Assembly: GCA_027488855.1 (NCBI GenBank)
Contig: JAIYAV010000208.1
Span: 1-64,000, forward strand
Length of the DNA stretch: 64,000 nucleotides
Reading direction: 5' to 3'
Origin: Saprospiraceae bacterium
GTDB taxonomy: Bacteria > Bacteroidota > Bacteroidia > Chitinophagales > Saprospiraceae
A program made the position numbers and the translations under genes. Shown here piece by piece: positions 1 to 7,353 of this stretch. Each line of letters starts with the position of its first letter. The first letter of the stretch is position 1. Under the pieces are notes generated by a model. The model made no database searches. It saw only the letters and a program-made list of their open reading frames with translations, and had not been told where the DNA came from.

Positions 1-16
1 ATTCAAATCACAATTT

Positions 17-666: not shown

Positions 667-2076
667 TCAACCCTTATACATCGGCAACTCAATCAAAGTA
701 TCCAACTGCTCCAACCGCTCCTGGCCCCGATAAAACAAATTCATCGTTTCAAAAGGAATGATCCGCTGCAAATCGGGGTGGACGATGTGTACGCAAGACT
801 TCTTGATGGCCCGCACATCAAAATCCCAGGCATCGATGAAACGCATCACGATAATCCGAAAGAGATTCCCATAACTCAGTCCCGGCGCATAAATATCCGG
901 TAGGCAACACATGATCGACTCTAGTTTTTCCTCCGCCACGTCCACATTATTCCCAGTACTGAACAACTGGATCACCTGCTCGTGCAAACCCGAATCCTGC
1001 TCGTACACAATGGTGTTGCGCGAGTTGTCCAACAAATAACTGGGATCGATCAGGCGGGTCAGGGGAAAAACCTCCCCATTCAATTTCAAGGCGTAACCCA
1101 TGATCAAGGCATCAGGATTGCAGGGCACTGGAATCAGGTCTTCTGGCGTAAACAGTTCGGTTTGTTCCACGATGGCCCGCCGCACTTCGGTCATGGTCAT
1201 GCGGTCTTTGGCAGGGTCAAAATGCTCTACCCGGCCCGCGATTTGGGTAGGTTGGAAGGTCACACCCCGCACACAGGGCTGTTTTAGGGCATACTCGATG
1301 ATGGGGCCAATCTCCTGATCGTTGATGTTTTTTTGTAGGGTTACGACCAGGGTGGTCGACAAATTGAACTCGTTGAGGTGTTTCAGGGCGTTCTCCCGCA
1401 CCTCACGCAGGTCGAGCCCCCGCAAATGCACCAATGGGGCCTCCTCCAGGCTATCGAACTGCAAGTAGATTTCAAAATCGGGCTGATAAGTCGCCAAGCG
1501 TTGGGCAAATTCTCGATCCCGCGCAATGCGAATGCCATTGGTATTGACCATCACATGGCGAATGGGGCGGGCTTTGGCCAAGTCCAAGATGGCAAAAAAA
1601 TCGGGATGTAAAGTTGGTTCCCCGCCGCTGATTTGCACCACATCGGGTTCACCTTCGTTGGCCACGATCAGGTCGAGCATGGCTTCAATTTCGGCCAAAC
1701 TGCGGTGTCGCCCTTGCTGCGGCCCACTCTCCGCATAACAGGTCGGGCAAGAGAGGTTGCAGCGGTCGGTCACTTCCACGATGGTCAAACAGGAATGTTG
1801 CTCGTGATCGGTACACAAACCACAATCGAAAGGGCAACCGTGCTCCACTGGGGTATTGAAGCGCAGGGGGTACTCCGAAGCTTTGTTGTAGTTGCGGATG
1901 TTTTTGTAGTATTCGATGTCATCGGCAATTTTTACCTTAAAAAAACCGTGCTCCGGGCAGGTTTTGCGCATGATGACCTGGTCGTCCTCAAAGACAATTT
2001 TGGCGTCGATGCGGCGCAGGCACTCGGGGCAGAGGCTAATGGTGTAGTCGTAATAGGTGTAGCGGCTAATGGGCAT
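667..2076 (-). CDS. radical SAM protein of the MJ0619/tetraether-lipid-synthase-like family
   Basis: 469 residues. The radical SAM motif C-x3-C-x2-C is at C106, C110 and C113 (CNLSCPTC), followed by the SAM-binding GGEPT segment near residue 151. The N-terminal 100 residues carry many more cysteines: a CPEC knuckle at C16/C19, C40, and a second C-x3-C-x2-C at C81/C85/C88 (CPFDCGLC) plus C96. That cysteine-rich N-terminus, suited to a rubredoxin-like site and auxiliary iron-sulfur clusters, is the hallmark of the COG1964/MJ0619 family, whose studied member Tes couples lipid tails in archaea. Here the substrate is unknown. It lies downstream of an Lgt-like membrane enzyme and upstream of two small membrane proteins, which fits a lipid substrate. 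Family call is firm; the lipid role is inference. Confidence 0.88.
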   Translation of the reverse strand: MPISRYTYYDYTISLCPECLRRIDAKIVFEDDQVIMRKTCPEHGFFKVKIADDIEYYKNIRNYNKASEYPLRFNTPVEHGCPFDCGLCTDHEQHSCLTIVEVTDRCNLSCPTCYAESGPQQGRHRSLAEIEAMLDLIVANEGEPDVVQISGGEPTLHPDFFAILDLAKARPIRHVMVNTNGIRIARDREFAQRLATYQPDFEIYLQFDSLEEAPLVHLRGLDLREVRENALKHLNEFNLSTTLVVTLQKNINDQEIGPIIEYALKQPCVRGVTFQPTQIAGRVEHFDPAKDRMTMTEVRRAIVEQTELFTPEDLIPVPCNPDALIMGYALKLNGEVFPLTRLIDPSYLLDNSRNTIVYEQDSGLHEQVIQLFSTGNNVDVAEEKLESIMCCLPDIYAPGLSYGNLFRIIVMRFIDAWDFDVRAIKKSCVHIVHPDLQRIIPFETMNLFYRGQERLEQLDTLIELPMYKG

Positions 2077-2146
2077 GTGAAATAGGTAGATTTGGTTGAT
2101 TCAATGATTATCAGTCAATTAACAGACATATGCACGATTTTATACC

Positions 2147-2236
2147 CCGCCCCGAAAGTTTCAGACTTTCGGGGCGGTCAAGCAAAGCACTGTTTCGCTG
2201 TTTTACCTCCCCGAAGGTTTGGAACCTTCGGGGAGG
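2147..2236. repeat. doublet of CCCCGAAAGT-type hairpins
   Basis: Two hairpins stand in tandem. The first (2147-2177) has a 13 bp stem beginning CCGCCCCGAAAGT, the second (2206-2236) a stem beginning CCTCCCCGAAGGTT. They are separated by about 28 bases. The same arrangement recurs at 57387-57467 and a single related hairpin at 46514-46542. It sits between the Lgt-like gene and the radical SAM gene and may attenuate or process their transcript. Confidence 0.8.
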
Positions 2237-2267
2237 GGTTCTAGATTTGTGCACAAATCCTTGATTT

Positions 2268-3077
2268 CTAGGTTGCATCAACTTTTTCAAATAATCGTTT
2301 CGGTTGTGTTACGTATCGCCAATAATACAGCCAGCCCAACAAGGCAGCCGTTTGAATGGCACTCAATCCCCAGGGCCAAAGCTCCACGGGTTTGATGAAA
2401 TCCAGCAAAAAGCGAAAGCACAGATAATCCAGCATAAAGATTTTGAAACGCGCACCAGATGCCAGAGGGTATGCTCGCTCAAAGTTGTACATGACGATCC
2501 AAAACAGTCCCAGGTACAGCACTTCGTACAAGGCTACCGGATGCCGCCGCAAGCCATCCCCCAAATCCATTCCGGTAAAAAAGGTGGTTTCTATGCCGTA
2601 GGTAGGTTCAAATACGCCCATCGAAAAACAGCCAAAGCGCCCAATCATCATGGCCAAAATCAGAGGATAGGTGAACAAATCGCCCGATGAGCTTTTTTCC
2701 CCAATCACTTTTTTGATTGCCTCCACGCCAAATAAACCACCCAATAATCCCCCCACGATGGTTTTACTGGAAAACAAAGCCAGCAACCAAACCTCCAGCG
2801 GCTTTTGCACCGTAAACAATTGTGGCCCCGCTTCCAATACACCCAAAATACGAGTACCCAACAAGGCCCCAAAAGTAGCGCCGATCAAAATCCAGAGGCG
2901 ATTGGATTGCTCGATGTTGTCGCCTTGTTTGCCCCGCAGGTAAACAAAATAGCGGAACCCCACAAAATAGGACAAGGCTTCCAGCACTGCATGAAGCGGA
3001 ACACGGTCAAAAAGCAGCACCGGAAATTTGAGTAGAAAAAACAACATCCCGTCCAGATTTCCCCCCCAAGATGCCAC
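2268..3077 (-). CDS. Lgt-like (prolipoprotein diacylglyceryl transferase family) membrane protein
   Basis: 269 residues, mostly hydrophobic, with about seven membrane segments. It has the family signature region in altered form: M-I-G-R-F-G-C-F at residues 144-151 (the usual G-R-x-G-N-F/N-G-E motif) and H-P-V-A-L-Y-E at 179-185, where the family has H-P-x-x-L-Y-E, and an F-R-F-L-L-D-F block near 221. The arginine of the signature is kept but the asparagine that follows is a cysteine and the N-G-E part is missing. It is therefore probably a divergent paralogue that handles another lipid transfer and not the housekeeping Lgt. Translation could also start at residue 11 (3047). It heads the leftward cluster with the radical SAM gene. 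Confidence 0.8.
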   Translation of the reverse strand: MASWGGNLDGMLFFLLKFPVLLFDRVPLHAVLEALSYFVGFRYFVYLRGKQGDNIEQSNRLWILIGATFGALLGTRILGVLEAGPQLFTVQKPLEVWLLALFSSKTIVGGLLGGLFGVEAIKKVIGEKSSSGDLFTYPLILAMMIGRFGCFSMGVFEPTYGIETTFFTGMDLGDGLRRHPVALYEVLYLGLFWIVMYNFERAYPLASGARFKIFMLDYLCFRFLLDFIKPVELWPWGLSAIQTAALLGWLYYWRYVTQPKRLFEKVDAT

Positions 3078-3106: not shown

Positions 3107-3769
3107 ATGAAACCATTTGAACGTTGGGAAACGGAAGAGGTGAAACTGACATTTGGGATCAAACAGCTAGATACACTTCCTGCCTTGGATGAGTGGATGA
3201 GTGCAGAGGAGCCTATTGATGATTTTGAAAGGGAAGTGTTGTTGCGCAATCACCGGGCTTTTCGGCGCAAAGCCAACCTATGGAATGAGGATGAAATCAA
3301 GTTTTTCTTCATCTCCCGCATCATCACTTTAGTTGATTTTAACAAGGAAGATGTTTATTCCACTTTTTCGCAGCGAACCCTAGAAGCTAGTGTGCGGGAT
3401 GTTAATAATAAAGAGGTTAAACTACGCGGTCGAGTAGAGTTTTTGGTGGCGCTCGGGGAACAAAAACCCAGACAACCTTTCTTTTTTCTGCATGAATACA
3501 AGCCGCAGTTTAAAAGTACCTCCAATGACCCGGTTGGACAGTTACTCATTGCGATGGTGGCGACGCAAAGTTTGAATGAACACCCAAGGCCAATGTACGG
3601 GGCTTACGTTGTAGGACAATATTGGCGTTTTGTGTTACTGGAAAATAAAGAATTTGCGATTGGTAAAACTTTTGATGCAGCTGAGGAAGAAGATTTGTTC
3701 AAAATATTTTCTATCCTAAGACGGAGTAAGGTCTACATAGAAAAAGAAGTCGCGGAACTTATGCTCTAA
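3107..3769 (+). CDS. hypothetical protein with a PD-(D/E)XK-like core
   Basis: 220 residues, soluble, without signal peptide. The centre contains R-V-E-F-L-V-A followed about 20 residues later by F-F-F-L-H-E-Y-K-P-Q, which fits the E...(D/E)xK pattern of the restriction-endonuclease-like fold, and a downstream Q-L-L-I-A-M helix that could supply the conserved Gln. Proteins of this type are common in Bacteroidota and usually occur as scattered single genes. I see no partner gene: the neighbour is a glutamine-synthetase-like enzyme separated by a terminator. Nuclease activity is inferred from the motif only. Confidence 0.7.
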   Translation: MKPFERWETEEVKLTFGIKQLDTLPALDEWMSAEEPIDDFEREVLLRNHRAFRRKANLWNEDEIKFFFISRIITLVDFNKEDVYSTFSQRTLEASVRDVNNKEVKLRGRVEFLVALGEQKPRQPFFFLHEYKPQFKSTSNDPVGQLLIAMVATQSLNEHPRPMYGAYVVGQYWRFVLLENKEFAIGKTFDAAEEEDLFKIFSILRRSKVYIEKEVAELML

Positions 3770-3847: not shown

Positions 3848-5203
3848 ATGACCAGCAAGGACATTGCCAGTACCCTCAACGCACTCCCCACTGACAAAGT
3901 AAAATACGCCATCGTCGACATCGATGGTATCCTGCGTGGCAAAATCCTGCACCGCAGCAAGTTCCTCAAAGGATTGGACGAAGGAATGGGCTTTTGCAAC
4001 GTGGTTTTTGGCTGGGACTCCAACGATGTCTGTTACGACAATACCAGTGCCAGCGGCTGGCATACTGGCTATCCCGATGCCATTTGTAATGTAGATTTGA
4101 ATACCCTCCGCTATGTGCCTTGGGAAGACAACATTCCTTTTTTCCTGGGCGATTTCAGTCAAGCCGAACCAGGAGTACGCGGTGCTTGCCCCCGTACTTT
4201 GTTGCGGCGCATTCGACAGGAGTGTTTGGATTTGGGGTATACGCCCATGTTCGCGCAAGAATTTGAGTGGTTCAATTTTAAAGAAACCCCACAAAGCTGG
4301 CACGACAAGGACTACCACTCCCCTACTCCACTTACACCGGGCATGTTTGGGTATTCCATCTTGCGGCCATCGGTCAATCCTCAATTTTACCACCAGCTTT
4401 TTGATGACTTACAAGACTTTGGCATTCCGCTGGAAGGGTTGCATACCGAAACAGGGCCGGGCGTATACGAAGCCGCCATCATTTTTGACGATATTCTGGA
4501 ATCCGCCGATCGGGCTACCCTCTTCAAAACCGGGGTAAAAGAAATTGCCTATCGCCACGGCATTATGGCGTCTTTTATGGCCAAATGGAGCGAAGAATTG
4601 CCGGGCTGTGGCGGGCATATCCACCAGAGTTTGTGGGATCCTGAACAAAAGCAGAACCTCTTTTACCAGGCCGATGCGCCCGAAAAGATGAGCGAATTGA
4701 TGACGCACTATGTAGCGGGTCAATTGCATTGTTTGCCCTACATTTTGCCCATGTTTGTACCCAACGTCAACAGTTACAAACGTTTGGTAAAGGGTTCCTG
4801 GGCTTCGGTGAGTGCCTCCTGGGGCATTGAGAACCGGACCACAGCGCTGCGGGTGATCAACCACGGCCACAAGTCGATGCGCCTCGAAACGCGGGTGCCG
4901 GGGGCGGATTCCAATCCTTATTTGGCCATGTCGGCTTGTTTGGCGGCGGGTCTGTACGGCATCAAAAATCGCCTGACGCTACCCGACCCGGTGCGCGGTA
5001 GCGCCTACGACAATACCAGCAATCCGCCCTTGCCTACTTCATTGTACGAGGCGGTGGATTTGATGAAAAGTTCTACCTTGGCGGCTGAATTGTTTGGCGC
5101 TGAATTTTGCGACCATTTCATCCGCACCCGTGAATGGGAATGGCGGCAGTTCAGCCAGGCGGTAACCCAATGGGAACTAAAGCGGTATTTTGAAATCATT
5201 TAA
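3848..5203 (+). CDS. glutamine synthetase family ligase (GlnA/PuuA-like)
   Basis: 451 residues covering a full glutamine-synthetase fold: a short beta-Grasp N-terminus and the catalytic domain. Key residues are present: E138/E140 (Q-E-F-E-W-F), E201 and E208 (T-E-T-G-P-G-V-Y-E), H257 in G-C-G-G-H-I-H-Q, R312 (N-S-Y-K-R-L), R330 (E-N-R-T-T-A-L-R) and R345/E347/R349 (R-L-E-T-R-V-P-G). It lacks the extra regions of the large GlnN type. It resembles the gamma-glutamylpolyamine synthetase branch more than housekeeping GlnA, so the amine it ligates to glutamate is uncertain. It is followed, after a 160 bp palindrome, by a kinase-like gene and a phosphatase-like gene in the same direction, which may form a pathway with it. 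Confidence 0.87.
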   Translation: MTSKDIASTLNALPTDKVKYAIVDIDGILRGKILHRSKFLKGLDEGMGFCNVVFGWDSNDVCYDNTSASGWHTGYPDAICNVDLNTLRYVPWEDNIPFFLGDFSQAEPGVRGACPRTLLRRIRQECLDLGYTPMFAQEFEWFNFKETPQSWHDKDYHSPTPLTPGMFGYSILRPSVNPQFYHQLFDDLQDFGIPLEGLHTETGPGVYEAAIIFDDILESADRATLFKTGVKEIAYRHGIMASFMAKWSEELPGCGGHIHQSLWDPEQKQNLFYQADAPEKMSELMTHYVAGQLHCLPYILPMFVPNVNSYKRLVKGSWASVSASWGIENRTTALRVINHGHKSMRLETRVPGADSNPYLAMSACLAAGLYGIKNRLTLPDPVRGSAYDNTSNPPLPTSLYEAVDLMKSSTLAAELFGAEFCDHFIRTREWEWRQFSQAVTQWELKRYFEII

Positions 5204-5230
5204 AAGTTTAGTAACTCACATTACGTAGTT

Positions 5231-5388
5231 AGCAGCTCCGCTGCTTATTTTTTTCACCACGACGACACGACGAACACGACGTTTTGCTCCGCACATCACG
5301 ACGCTAGCGTCGTGTTTTAAACGCACGAAGTGCGTAAATCGTCGTGCCCGTTGTGCCGTCGTGGTGAATAATAAGCAGCGAAGCTGCT
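5231..5388. repeat. 158 bp nested palindrome
   Basis: Outer arms of about 50 bases (5231-5281 against 5339-5388) match at roughly nine positions in ten. Inside lie an 18 bp perfect palindrome (CACGACGCTAGCGTCGTG, 5297-5314) and a short hairpin (ACGCA..TGCGT, 5321-5335). It has no ORF of note and fills the gap between the ligase gene and the kinase-like gene. It may be a mobile palindromic unit or an mRNA structure. Confidence 0.8.
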
Positions 5389-5457
5389 CCTCTGTGTATT
5401 GTGCGTTAGAAAGTTAAGGGGGGCTCAACCGCCCTCGACTTTCTCAACTCCTTACTT

Positions 5458-6498
5458 ATGCAGCCCGATTACCACGCCATTATCCGCTACGCCTGGACCG
5501 CTTACGACCCCTCGCGCCAAATCGAATCCACTACCGACATCAGTGCCAGGGTCTCTACCAACCATGTCTACAAGGTTACCTTTACGGACAAAAGTTTTGT
5601 GATCGCCAAGTTGTCTTACTTTGGGCGTTACGAGCATTTTGTGGAGGACCACCGCATCATCAACGTATTGGCTAATAACCTGCCAGCACCATTTGAAAAC
5701 CTGCTGGCGCGTTCGCTCATCAAGAGCACCAGCCTGTTTGTACACCGCTACATCCACGAAGACATTGATGTGTGGGTCGTGTTTTACCGGGCGGTACGCA
5801 TCAAAACCCGGCTGCCCCGTCGCCTGGAAGAGGATCACATCATCAAACTTGGCCGGGAGTTTGCCCAATTTCACAAAGCTTGCCATAGCATCCGCAACAC
5901 CTTGCCCAATTCCTCCAAAACCCTGCACACCGATATAGATCATTTGATGGAGGCCATTGATAGGAAAAATAGCCACTTGGGGGCGCATGTCGACAAAGAC
6001 GAACTCAAACGGCAATGTGACCTTTTTTACGAAAATGAAGACAAGCTGCGGCTACATCGCCTTGATCGTATCCCGGTTTTTGTGGACTGGAACATTGGCA
6101 ATTTTTCGGTAAGTTCCACTTTTCGATTATTTTCGCGCTGGGATTACGACTGGTTCCGCATCAGCAATCGCATGTTGGACTTTTATTTTTTCAGTCGGGT
6201 CGCTTCCAATGTAGGTGATCGCACCGTTTTTTCTTACAACATTGGGCCACTGATGGAAGAGCGTTTTTTGCTGTTCCTGAAGTCATACCACGCCCATTAT
6301 CCCCTGACCGAAACCGAAATCCGCAGCCTGAAAGAGGTCTACCGCTTCTTTTTGTTGCATTACGTCGTCGATTATGGCACGTACTTTTTTGCCCAAAACT
6401 ACTCAACCAAATTGCAGAAAGAGGCTTTCGAAGTACATTTTCCCTCTATTGAAAAGGGCTTCGATGCCGACAAGTTACTCAAGGCTTTAAAATTGTAA
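5458..6498 (+). CDS. APH/choline-kinase-like phosphotransferase
   Basis: 346 residues, cytoplasmic. The N-terminal lobe has a candidate ATP lysine in V-I-A-K-L-S (about residue 50). The catalytic region reads V-F-V-D-W-N-I-G-N-F near residue 216, where the usual H-G-D-x-x-x-x-N has lost its His-Gly but keeps Asp and Asn, and R-W-D-Y-D-W-F follows in place of the I-D-F-D metal-binding motif. This is the aminoglycoside-phosphotransferase/homoserine-kinase-like fold; the substrate is unknown. The stop is only 6 bases from the next ATG, so it is co-transcribed with a HAD-type hydrolase. A kinase paired with a phosphatase next to a glutamate ligase suggests small-molecule metabolism and not drug resistance. 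Confidence 0.75.
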   Translation: MQPDYHAIIRYAWTAYDPSRQIESTTDISARVSTNHVYKVTFTDKSFVIAKLSYFGRYEHFVEDHRIINVLANNLPAPFENLLARSLIKSTSLFVHRYIHEDIDVWVVFYRAVRIKTRLPRRLEEDHIIKLGREFAQFHKACHSIRNTLPNSSKTLHTDIDHLMEAIDRKNSHLGAHVDKDELKRQCDLFYENEDKLRLHRLDRIPVFVDWNIGNFSVSSTFRLFSRWDYDWFRISNRMLDFYFFSRVASNVGDRTVFSYNIGPLMEERFLLFLKSYHAHYPLTETEIRSLKEVYRFFLLHYVVDYGTYFFAQNYSTKLQKEAFEVHFPSIEKGFDADKLLKALKL

Positions 6499-6504
6499 GG
6501 TGGT

Positions 6505-7353
6505 ATGGAAAGAATTGATTCGTTTTTGGAAGTAGTTTCTGGCTTCAAAGCCGTTTTTTTGGATTCCTATGGGGTGATAAAAAACTATCGGGGGCTCATC
6601 GAAGGGGTACAGGAAACCCTGGACTTTATTCAGGCCAGGGGCATCGAGTTTCGCATCCTCACCAATGATGCCTCCCGCAGCCAAGAGCAACAGGCTGAAT
6701 CCTTTTTGCGACTGGGCCTGCAGGGTATTCCTGCGGAAAAAATTGTTACCTCGGGCATGATGGCCAAACAATACCTGCAACTCAAGATTAAAGGGGGAAA
6801 AGTAGCTTACCTAGGCACTGCCAACGCCGCTCACTACATCATGCAGGCCAACCTGGAGAGTGTAGCCATCGCCGATCTGGACAAACACGATCTTGAAGAC
6901 ATCAAAGCCATGGTCTTTTTGGACGATGAGGGCTTCGATTGGAACTTTGATATCAACCGCACAGTCAACCTCATCCGCAAAAAAAACATGCCCATCATTG
7001 TGGCCAATTCGGACAACCTCTACCCGGTTTCTCACAACGACGTATCCATCGCCACGGGGGGCATCGCCAAACTGGTGGAAAGCATCATCAACAAAAAATT
7101 CATCCATTTCGGCAAGCCCGACACCCAGATGTTCAACTTCGCTTTTGAAGACATCAATCGCTACAGTGAATACAACAAGGAGGAAATCCTCATGGTGGGT
7201 GACACCTTGCATACAGATATTCTGGGAGGAAACAAATTTGGCATCAAAACCGCACTGGTACTCAGTGGCAATACCAGCCCAAGTGAGATGGAAATGAACA
7301 TCCGCTCTACTGGGATCATTCCGGATTACATTTGTGAGTCGATTGTGGGGTAA
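6505..7353 (+). CDS. HAD superfamily class IIA (NagD-like) hydrolase
   Basis: 282 residues. HAD motif I is F-L-D-S-Y-G-V at residues 18-24: the nucleophile D20 is present, but the second Asp of the usual D-x-D is replaced by Tyr22. Motif II is I-L-T-N-D-A-S-R, motif III H-F-G-K-P-D and motif IV M-V-G-D-T-L-H-T-D with G-G-N. The cap lies between motifs II and III (class IIA), as in NagD and pyridoxal or glycolate phosphatases. Loss of the general acid may slow or change the phosphatase chemistry. It follows the kinase-like gene after 6 bases and is probably translated from the same mRNA. Confidence 0.85.
   Translation: MERIDSFLEVVSGFKAVFLDSYGVIKNYRGLIEGVQETLDFIQARGIEFRILTNDASRSQEQQAESFLRLGLQGIPAEKIVTSGMMAKQYLQLKIKGGKVAYLGTANAAHYIMQANLESVAIADLDKHDLEDIKAMVFLDDEGFDWNFDINRTVNLIRKKNMPIIVANSDNLYPVSHNDVSIATGGIAKLVESIINKKFIHFGKPDTQMFNFAFEDINRYSEYNKEEILMVGDTLHTDILGGNKFGIKTALVLSGNTSPSEMEMNIRSTGIIPDYICESIVG

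Follow-up and report, generated by a model that had tools for sequence, protein, structure and literature searches.

A gene set of a divergent Lgt paralogue, a Tes/TrsS-like radical SAM enzyme and small membrane proteins with a conserved tail cysteine in Bacteroidota

What might two enzymes from lipid-related families act on when they are encoded next to a row of small membrane proteins? The question is raised by contig JAIYAV010000208.1 of a Saprospiraceae bacterium (assembly GCA_027488855.1), of which positions 1 to 64,000 were analyzed, a stretch referred to as the window. Its left end consists of four minus-strand genes (Table 1), in the order LgtL, a divergent paralogue of prolipoprotein diacylglyceryl transferase (Lgt), a radical S-adenosylmethionine (SAM) enzyme related to tetraether synthase (Tes), small protein 1 and small protein 2. 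An earlier note, made from the sequence, had described one gene cluster, and a conserved cassette is supported: the four-gene order is present, and the set is common to many Bacteroidota. The earlier note overlooked that the small proteins share a near-invariant cysteine close to their C-terminus. Our tentative answer, held with somewhat less than even confidence, is a dedicated lipid-modification system for membrane microproteins, in which this cysteine would receive diacylglycerol from LgtL and the radical SAM enzyme would alter the lipid.

Two genome samples were used, a near sample of 60 genomes (the window's own and 59 relatives) and a phylum sample of 395 Bacteroidota genomes, the own one included. 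In the near sample, strong matches to the radical SAM protein (E 1.6e-210 or better) and to LgtL fall into the same eight genomes, the own one and seven relatives; the count omits weak radical SAM matches in 35 further genomes (best E 8.8e-11) and weak Lgt matches in three (E 3e-4 or worse). The LgtL of G030 is a mere fragment at a contig end. At profile thresholds of E ≤1e-100 for the radical SAM protein and E ≤1e-20 for LgtL, the phylum sample contains the former in 31 and the latter in 32 genomes, with all 31 common to both. Co-occurrence of the two genes exceeds chance; Fisher's test without the own genome gives p = 3e-44, a value that ignores relatedness and overstates independence. The refuting outcome named in the earlier note, genes that do not co-occur in other genomes, was not seen in either sample.

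The two enzyme genes are also linked. We studied 88 radical SAM loci closely, namely that of the window, seven further loci and the best 80 of 582 relatives, a set that is skewed to close relatives and contains at least two contigs doubled (L039/L064 and L041/L091). Carriers of the gene set include Chitinophaga rupis, Mucilaginibacter rigui, and Niabella pedocola. LgtL lies within the same fetched locus in 78 of them. It is missing from the fetched stretch in ten (L039, L051, L052, L053, L057, L064, L075, L080, L092, and L125); the stretch of L053 begins just 309 nt ahead of the radical SAM gene, and in G018, the genome of L039/L064, LgtL is found on a different contig. Spacing is tight: with starts assigned by rule, LgtL and the radical SAM gene overlap or lie at most 20 nt apart in 56 of the 76 loci with a full LgtL on the same strand, and the same holds for the radical SAM gene and the first small gene in 67 of 82. 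Across 43 loci, LgtL and radical SAM distances correlate with a coefficient of 0.81, which none of 2,000 label shuffles reaches; shared species ancestry alone can produce such a correlation.

The third component was followed with a profile built from 70 seeds out of the same loci, so that the search is partly circular. In 82 of the 88 loci, it detects a small membrane protein encoded immediately behind the radical SAM gene, with 130 downstream copies in total and one to four per locus. The six loci without such a gene comprise four contig ends, L043, whose copy is located upstream next to LgtL, and L051. The upstream copy of L043 is the only match elsewhere among 16,692 stop-to-stop frames of the loci. 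Across the 131 copies, the commonest tail reads L-[IV]-[GS]-[FL]-[SG]-x-C, and 128 of them carry cysteine in the motif column. Any cysteine in the last 18 residues occurs in 129 of the 131 copies versus seven of 46 other small membrane open reading frames of the loci, a control set of frames of at least 70 residues that may include non-genes. In an alignment of 58 rows with a mean column identity of 21%, the tail cysteine is the only invariant column. Glycine or serine stands at position -4 of the cysteine in 127 of 129 cases.

Three hydrophobic segments are found in 72 copies, two in 57, and four in the remaining two. Mean numbers of lysine and arginine along the three-segment copies are 2.1, 0.5, 2.3, and 0.4, and those along the two-segment copies 0.3, 4.2, and 0.1. 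Because of this bias of positive charge, the tail is predicted to lie outside in both main forms. A structure model of small protein 1 (predicted local distance difference test, pLDDT, 84.7) consists of three helices, with Cys92 in helix 3. Nine small proteins, the pair of the window and seven from other loci, gave no Pfam or NCBIfam match above the curated cut-off, and Foldseek found no significant match for the small-protein model (best E 1.5).

A narrower small-protein profile, A3, was searched over whole genomes at E 0.01. It matches 13 of the 60 nearest genomes, namely six of the eight LgtL genomes and seven of the 52 others. The two LgtL genomes it misses are G026, where the contig ends, and G059, where the copy is located upstream; among the seven others, one match is strong (G019, 1.6e-10) and six are weak (E 0.001 to 0.009). 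In the phylum sample, A3 matches 20 of 31 LgtL genomes, in some of them far from the set, e.g., in G075. The LgtL of this genome (L129:6656-7498) has neither a radical SAM gene nor a recognised small protein adjoining it. Tails with the cysteine motif were seen by eye in L126, L127, L128, L131, and L134, all missed by A3.

With regard to the enzymes, the earlier note correctly took LgtL for a divergent member of the Lgt family. It matches Pfam LGT (PF01790) with 57.9 bits against a cut-off of 24.9 and misses the NCBIfam lgt equivalog TIGR00544 with 21.7 bits against 118.9. For its model (pLDDT 93.1), E. coli Lgt (5azb) is the only Protein Data Bank match of Foldseek at E ≤0.001, with E 4.9e-6, a template modelling score of about 0.5 and a root-mean-square deviation of 6.3. 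We aligned 45 of the 77 LgtL sequences found at that stage. The equivalents of E. coli R143, E202, Y235, and R239 (R147, E185, Y218, and R222) are invariant in all 45, the position of E243 is glutamate or aspartate in 44, and that of N146 is cysteine throughout (Cys150, in the motif GRxGC). In E. coli Lgt, R143 and R239 bind and activate phosphatidylglycerol, His103 is essential, and its HGGL motif is the proposed binding site for the lipobox peptide (PMC4728403). Judged by these residues, LgtL appears to keep the phosphatidylglycerol donor site of Lgt and to be altered on the acceptor side. Since every one of the 32 LgtL genomes in the phylum sample has at least one other PF01790 gene, LgtL is distinct from the housekeeping Lgt copy.

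In Pfam, the radical SAM protein scores 84.1 bits for Radical_SAM and 76.8 bits for the HMPTM zinc ribbon; among solved structures, tetraether synthase 7tol is closest to it in sequence (E 2.6e-70; by profile 1.2e-81). Aligned to 7tol, it shows the ligand motifs of Tes in the same order, and the Tes-type cysteine-rich N-terminus named by the earlier note is confirmed: a rubredoxin-type site C16-C19-C40-H43 (C-x2-C-x20-C-x2-H), an N cluster C81-C85-C88 (C-x3-C-x2-C) and the radical SAM cluster C106-C110-C113 (CX3CX2C). The corresponding metal sites of Tes are described in PMC9433317. In an alignment of 45 of the 88 members, all these cysteines and the rubredoxin histidine are invariant. Invariant residues of the C-terminal region are C319, C390, C391, C428, and M411, which are candidate ligands of a C-terminal cluster. 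M411 corresponds to Met439 of Tes, described as labile in PMC9433317, where the M439A enzyme stays active. Differences to Tes concern Tyr459, reported there as completely conserved in archaeal Tes and replaced by isoleucine (I431) in 45 of 45 members, the PF-Cys of Tes, which reads PFE, and the other C-terminal cysteine positions, which are shifted relative to 7tol, with the pair C390-C391 lacking a counterpart in the compared 7tol stretch.

Among the NCBIfam models, that of the radical SAM (seleno)protein TrsS (NF045646) is the best match at nearly full length, with 331.9 bits against a cut-off of 490, while Tes reaches 287.2 bits against 450. By these scores, the protein belongs to the Tes/TrsS superfamily, nearer to TrsS than to Tes, and passes neither family cut-off. 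No peptide-recognition domain was found in it with Pfam or NCBIfam. In a tree of radical SAM proteins, with a midpoint root for drawing only, the actinobacterial branch is very long (5.87), and those of Tes, L136, and L128 are long, too; nothing is drawn from it as to whether the Lgt-linked members form one clade. The interpretation of the earlier note is supported in part, as regards the conserved cassette, the Lgt-family enzyme and the Tes-type N-terminus. The closer match to TrsS leaves room for the other refuting outcome it named, a grouping with a non-lipid subfamily, and with Tyr459 of Tes being isoleucine throughout and PF-Cys being PFE, joining of lipid chains is at most a possible activity.

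More distant relatives extend the set. In three divergent Bacteroidota loci (L126, L127, and L128), the order is radical SAM gene, ICMT-family methyltransferase, DUF4395, LgtL, and small protein, with small-protein tails such as LLFGAC or IFGSC. The ICMT-family membrane methyltransferase has a Pfam match in all three, the DUF4395 protein in L126 and L128, and in L127 it was recognised by eye; the radical SAM protein of L126 scores 359.2 bits with TrsS, again below the cut-off. All three components also occur together in actinobacterial records of M. avium, M. branderi, and Nonomuraea. The LgtL of each of these has GRxGC and lacks HGGL, and the one or two Cys-tail membrane proteins per record have tails reading [ILVY]CTG[LI]NP (five of five tails). 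The actinobacterial radical SAM relative is without the N-cluster cysteines. Although filed as a plasmid, the Nonomuraea record has a size of 11.9 Mb, and its Cys-tail protein is no microprotein because of a long proline-rich N-terminal part. Ten plasmid records contain a radical SAM match, and all except that of Halalkalicoccus were inspected. On the M. vanbaalenii plasmid and four haloarchaeal plasmids (L136, L139, L142-L144), the radical SAM relative adjoins a SAM methyltransferase, a neighbor that is absent from the window locus; on three of the four haloarchaeal plasmids, this pair is located beside DUF547 and redoxin-type genes. The superfamily thus has a second kind of partnership.

How could these parts work together? 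In the reading we favor, the small proteins would be the substrates. Their last helix would run from the cytoplasm to the outside with the cysteine motif, L-[IV]-G-F-S-x-C, near its outer end, such that the single conserved thiol would lie towards the outer face of the inner membrane, the side on which Lgt acts. LgtL would transfer a diacylglyceryl group onto this cysteine (S-diacylglycerylation), possibly with the GRxGC cysteine as a relay, and the radical SAM enzyme would then modify an alkyl chain in either the attached or the donor lipid, e.g., by C-C or C-S coupling. What the data show are the three-gene set with its linkage and co-occurrence, the conserved cysteine, the charge bias, and the families and residues of the enzymes; the lipidation step is inferred from residues of LgtL and the topology of the small proteins, and the action on a lipid chain from the chemistry of the enzyme family only. 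From their sequences, the small proteins seem the likeliest target rather than bystanders because of the near-invariant tail cysteine and the position after the radical SAM gene. A more specific version, which would amount to a new kind of protein lipidation, is in our view improbable: a specialised Lgt would use a cysteine relay to place diacylglycerol on the tail cysteine of a multi-helix microprotein, the Tes-type enzyme would then join the lipid tails, and lipid-crosslinked or membrane-spanning protein anchors would result in Bacteroidota and Actinomycetota.

Several observations weigh against the proposed lipidation of the small proteins. His103 of the HGGL motif is missing in 45 of 45 LgtL sequences. 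A canonical lipobox, [LVI][ASTVI][GAS]C, is present within the last 18 residues of merely three of the 131 copies, so that by sequence the cysteine has a lipobox-like placement and no true lipobox. Since the modelled helix 3 of small protein 1 extends 11 residues beyond Cys92, the cysteine may lie inside the membrane instead of at its edge. For the radical SAM enzyme, a cytosolic location is presumed, whereas the cysteine is predicted outside. The motif cysteine is absent from three copies, with one isoleucine and two gaps. Furthermore, the components do occur apart: G075 is the only LgtL genome of the phylum sample without a radical SAM gene; downstream of the radical SAM gene of L051, no small gene was found; beside that of L132 (G328), no Cys-tail small protein was seen by eye; and G019 has an orphan small Cys-tail protein (L152:6381-6737), with LgtL and a strong radical SAM match not found in this genome.

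Other explanations start from the same enzymes and assign the small proteins a different role. The products might be free lipids: a small molecule would accept diacylglycerol from LgtL, the radical SAM enzyme would couple or modify fatty-acyl chains like Tes, and the small proteins would be scaffolds. The preserved Tes architecture and metal-site residues agree with this, as do the loss of the HGGL histidine, the proposed peptide site (PMC4728403), and the binding of bacterial phospholipids by Tes that is reported in PMC9433317. Such a pathway leaves unexplained why otherwise poorly conserved small proteins retain one conserved cysteine, and its enzyme would be a protein below the Tes cut-off that lacks Tyr459; we consider it unlikely, though deserving of attention. 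Alternatively, the small proteins could be matured like ribosomally synthesised and post-translationally modified peptides (RiPPs), with the radical SAM enzyme forming a thioether or other bond at the cysteine before insertion and LgtL lipidating later or elsewhere. The small genes indeed resemble precursor genes in abutting the radical SAM gene as one to four divergent tandem copies, the radical SAM gene retains a small gene as its neighbor even where LgtL is elsewhere (as in L039/L064), and a lipoprotein-RiPP hybrid is reported in a Chryseobacterium study (PMC12636315, preprint). Because Pfam and NCBIfam gave the radical SAM protein no peptide-recognition domain and its closest solved relative is a lipid enzyme, we regard this route as rather unlikely.

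A further possibility treats the small proteins as partner subunits that anchor the enzymes or feed them electrons, in which case the cysteine would be a metal, haem or redox ligand or an inter-subunit contact. The residue at -4 creates a GxxxC helix face, the modelled helix goes on beyond the cysteine, and additional membrane proteins of the DUF4395 and ICMT types join the set in the divergent genomes. The predicted outside location of the cysteine fits poorly, however, and highly divergent proteins present in one to four copies are unlike a fixed subunit, which makes this role doubtful. Lastly, LgtL might be an ordinary extra enzyme for lipidation of lipoproteins, with incidental neighbors. 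Its PF01790 membership would suit this view; the near-strict co-occurrence and linkage, the missing His103 and invariant Cys150, and the other PF01790 gene or genes in every LgtL genome tested all contradict it, and we give it hardly any weight.

The coordinates of the locus are collected in Table 1. Its extent deviates from the earlier note, which had placed the four-gene cluster at 667-3077: the cluster is confirmed, but both small genes fall outside this interval. For LgtL, an alternative start at the internal ATG of residue 11 is possible. Small proteins 1 and 2 share 31% identity; for the latter, the listed frame of 132 amino acids with a TTG start runs over into the gene of the former. 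The genome has a third small copy on another contig, C380, at 5116-5403 near its right end. Since the final 11 bases of C380 recur as the first 11 of the window, a tandem array of small genes is probably broken at the contig ends and continues on C380.

Table 1. Features at the left end of the window.
Feature	Coordinates	Strand	Remarks
Left edge of contig C195 (window start)	1-11	.	11 bases identical to the last 11 of contig C380
Small membrane protein 2, 99 aa	17-316	-	From internal ATG; Cys92 (codon 41-43) in LIGASIC
Small three-helix membrane protein 1, 104 aa	331-645	-	Conserved Cys92 (codon 370-372) in LLGGSIC
Tes/TrsS-like radical SAM enzyme, 469 aa	667-2076	-	Pfam matches; NCBIfam scores below cut-offs
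Inverted repeat 1, arms	2147-2159 / 2165-2177		Between LgtL and radical SAM gene
Inverted repeat 2, arms	2206-2219 / 2223-2236		Between LgtL and radical SAM gene
LgtL, divergent prolipoprotein diacylglyceryl transferase paralogue, 269 aa	2268-3077	-	GTG start listed

The two inverted repeats in the intergenic region (2147-2236) are perfect and alike in sequence; they could be terminators or a repeat of the repetitive extragenic palindromic (REP) type. Directly divergent from LgtL, a protein of 220 amino acids is encoded at 3107-3769, for which no Pfam or NCBIfam match was obtained at E 0.01. It is followed on the plus strand (3848-7353) by a glutamine-synthetase-like gene, an open reading frame of 346 amino acids without a Pfam match and a HAD-IIA phosphatase, which are possibly a small gamma-glutamyl pathway.

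How does the set compare to known systems? With E. coli Lgt, LgtL has in common the fold and the four invariant residues, and it is set apart by the missing His103, the cysteine in place of N146, and the linkage to a radical SAM enzyme and microproteins. The radical SAM protein relates similarly to Tes (also named GDGT-MAS), with shared metal-site motifs and the Met439 equivalent on the one hand, and the score below the cut-off, the two substitutions and the C390-C391 pair on the other. Bacterial Tes homologues, of which 456 were counted in PMC8941075, are without a confirmed role. Branched tetraether synthesis has been proposed for them (PMC8941075), an activity described as unconfirmed in PMC11868695; according to PMC9433317, they are also present in bacteria not known to produce such chains. 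Members of our radical SAM family may be among the 456.

A small protein is likewise made via the lipoprotein pathway in the RiPP-lipoprotein hybrid of the dyb cluster, but that system relies on an MNIO enzyme together with an N-terminal signal and a canonical lipobox, and the word 'radical' is absent from the text of the study (PMC12636315). In the Skillet-1 lipocone systems, as outlined in PMC12419801, a dedicated enzyme is likewise predicted to lipidate a lipobox-like motif in a non-canonical way, although the residue is serine rather than cysteine and the enzyme a lipocone protein rather than an Lgt paralogue. Searches of an open-licence library listed no paper whose title and abstract describe the gene set; it may have been described elsewhere. 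While the enzyme families are known individually, the set, the tail-cysteine proteins and an Lgt paralogue lacking its essential histidine beside a radical SAM enzyme fit no described system that we could find, and tests as Lgt, Tes, TrsS or canonical lipoprotein each fail in at least one feature.

For one branch of the bacterial Tes homologues, the gene set names a concrete enzyme partner and a possible protein substrate, down to a single residue. If the tail cysteine is lipidated, a large phylum, and mycobacterial plasmids too, would have a lipoprotein pathway that departs from the lipobox rule for signal peptides, and small membrane proteins of which the nine compared had no family match above cut-off would gain a function.

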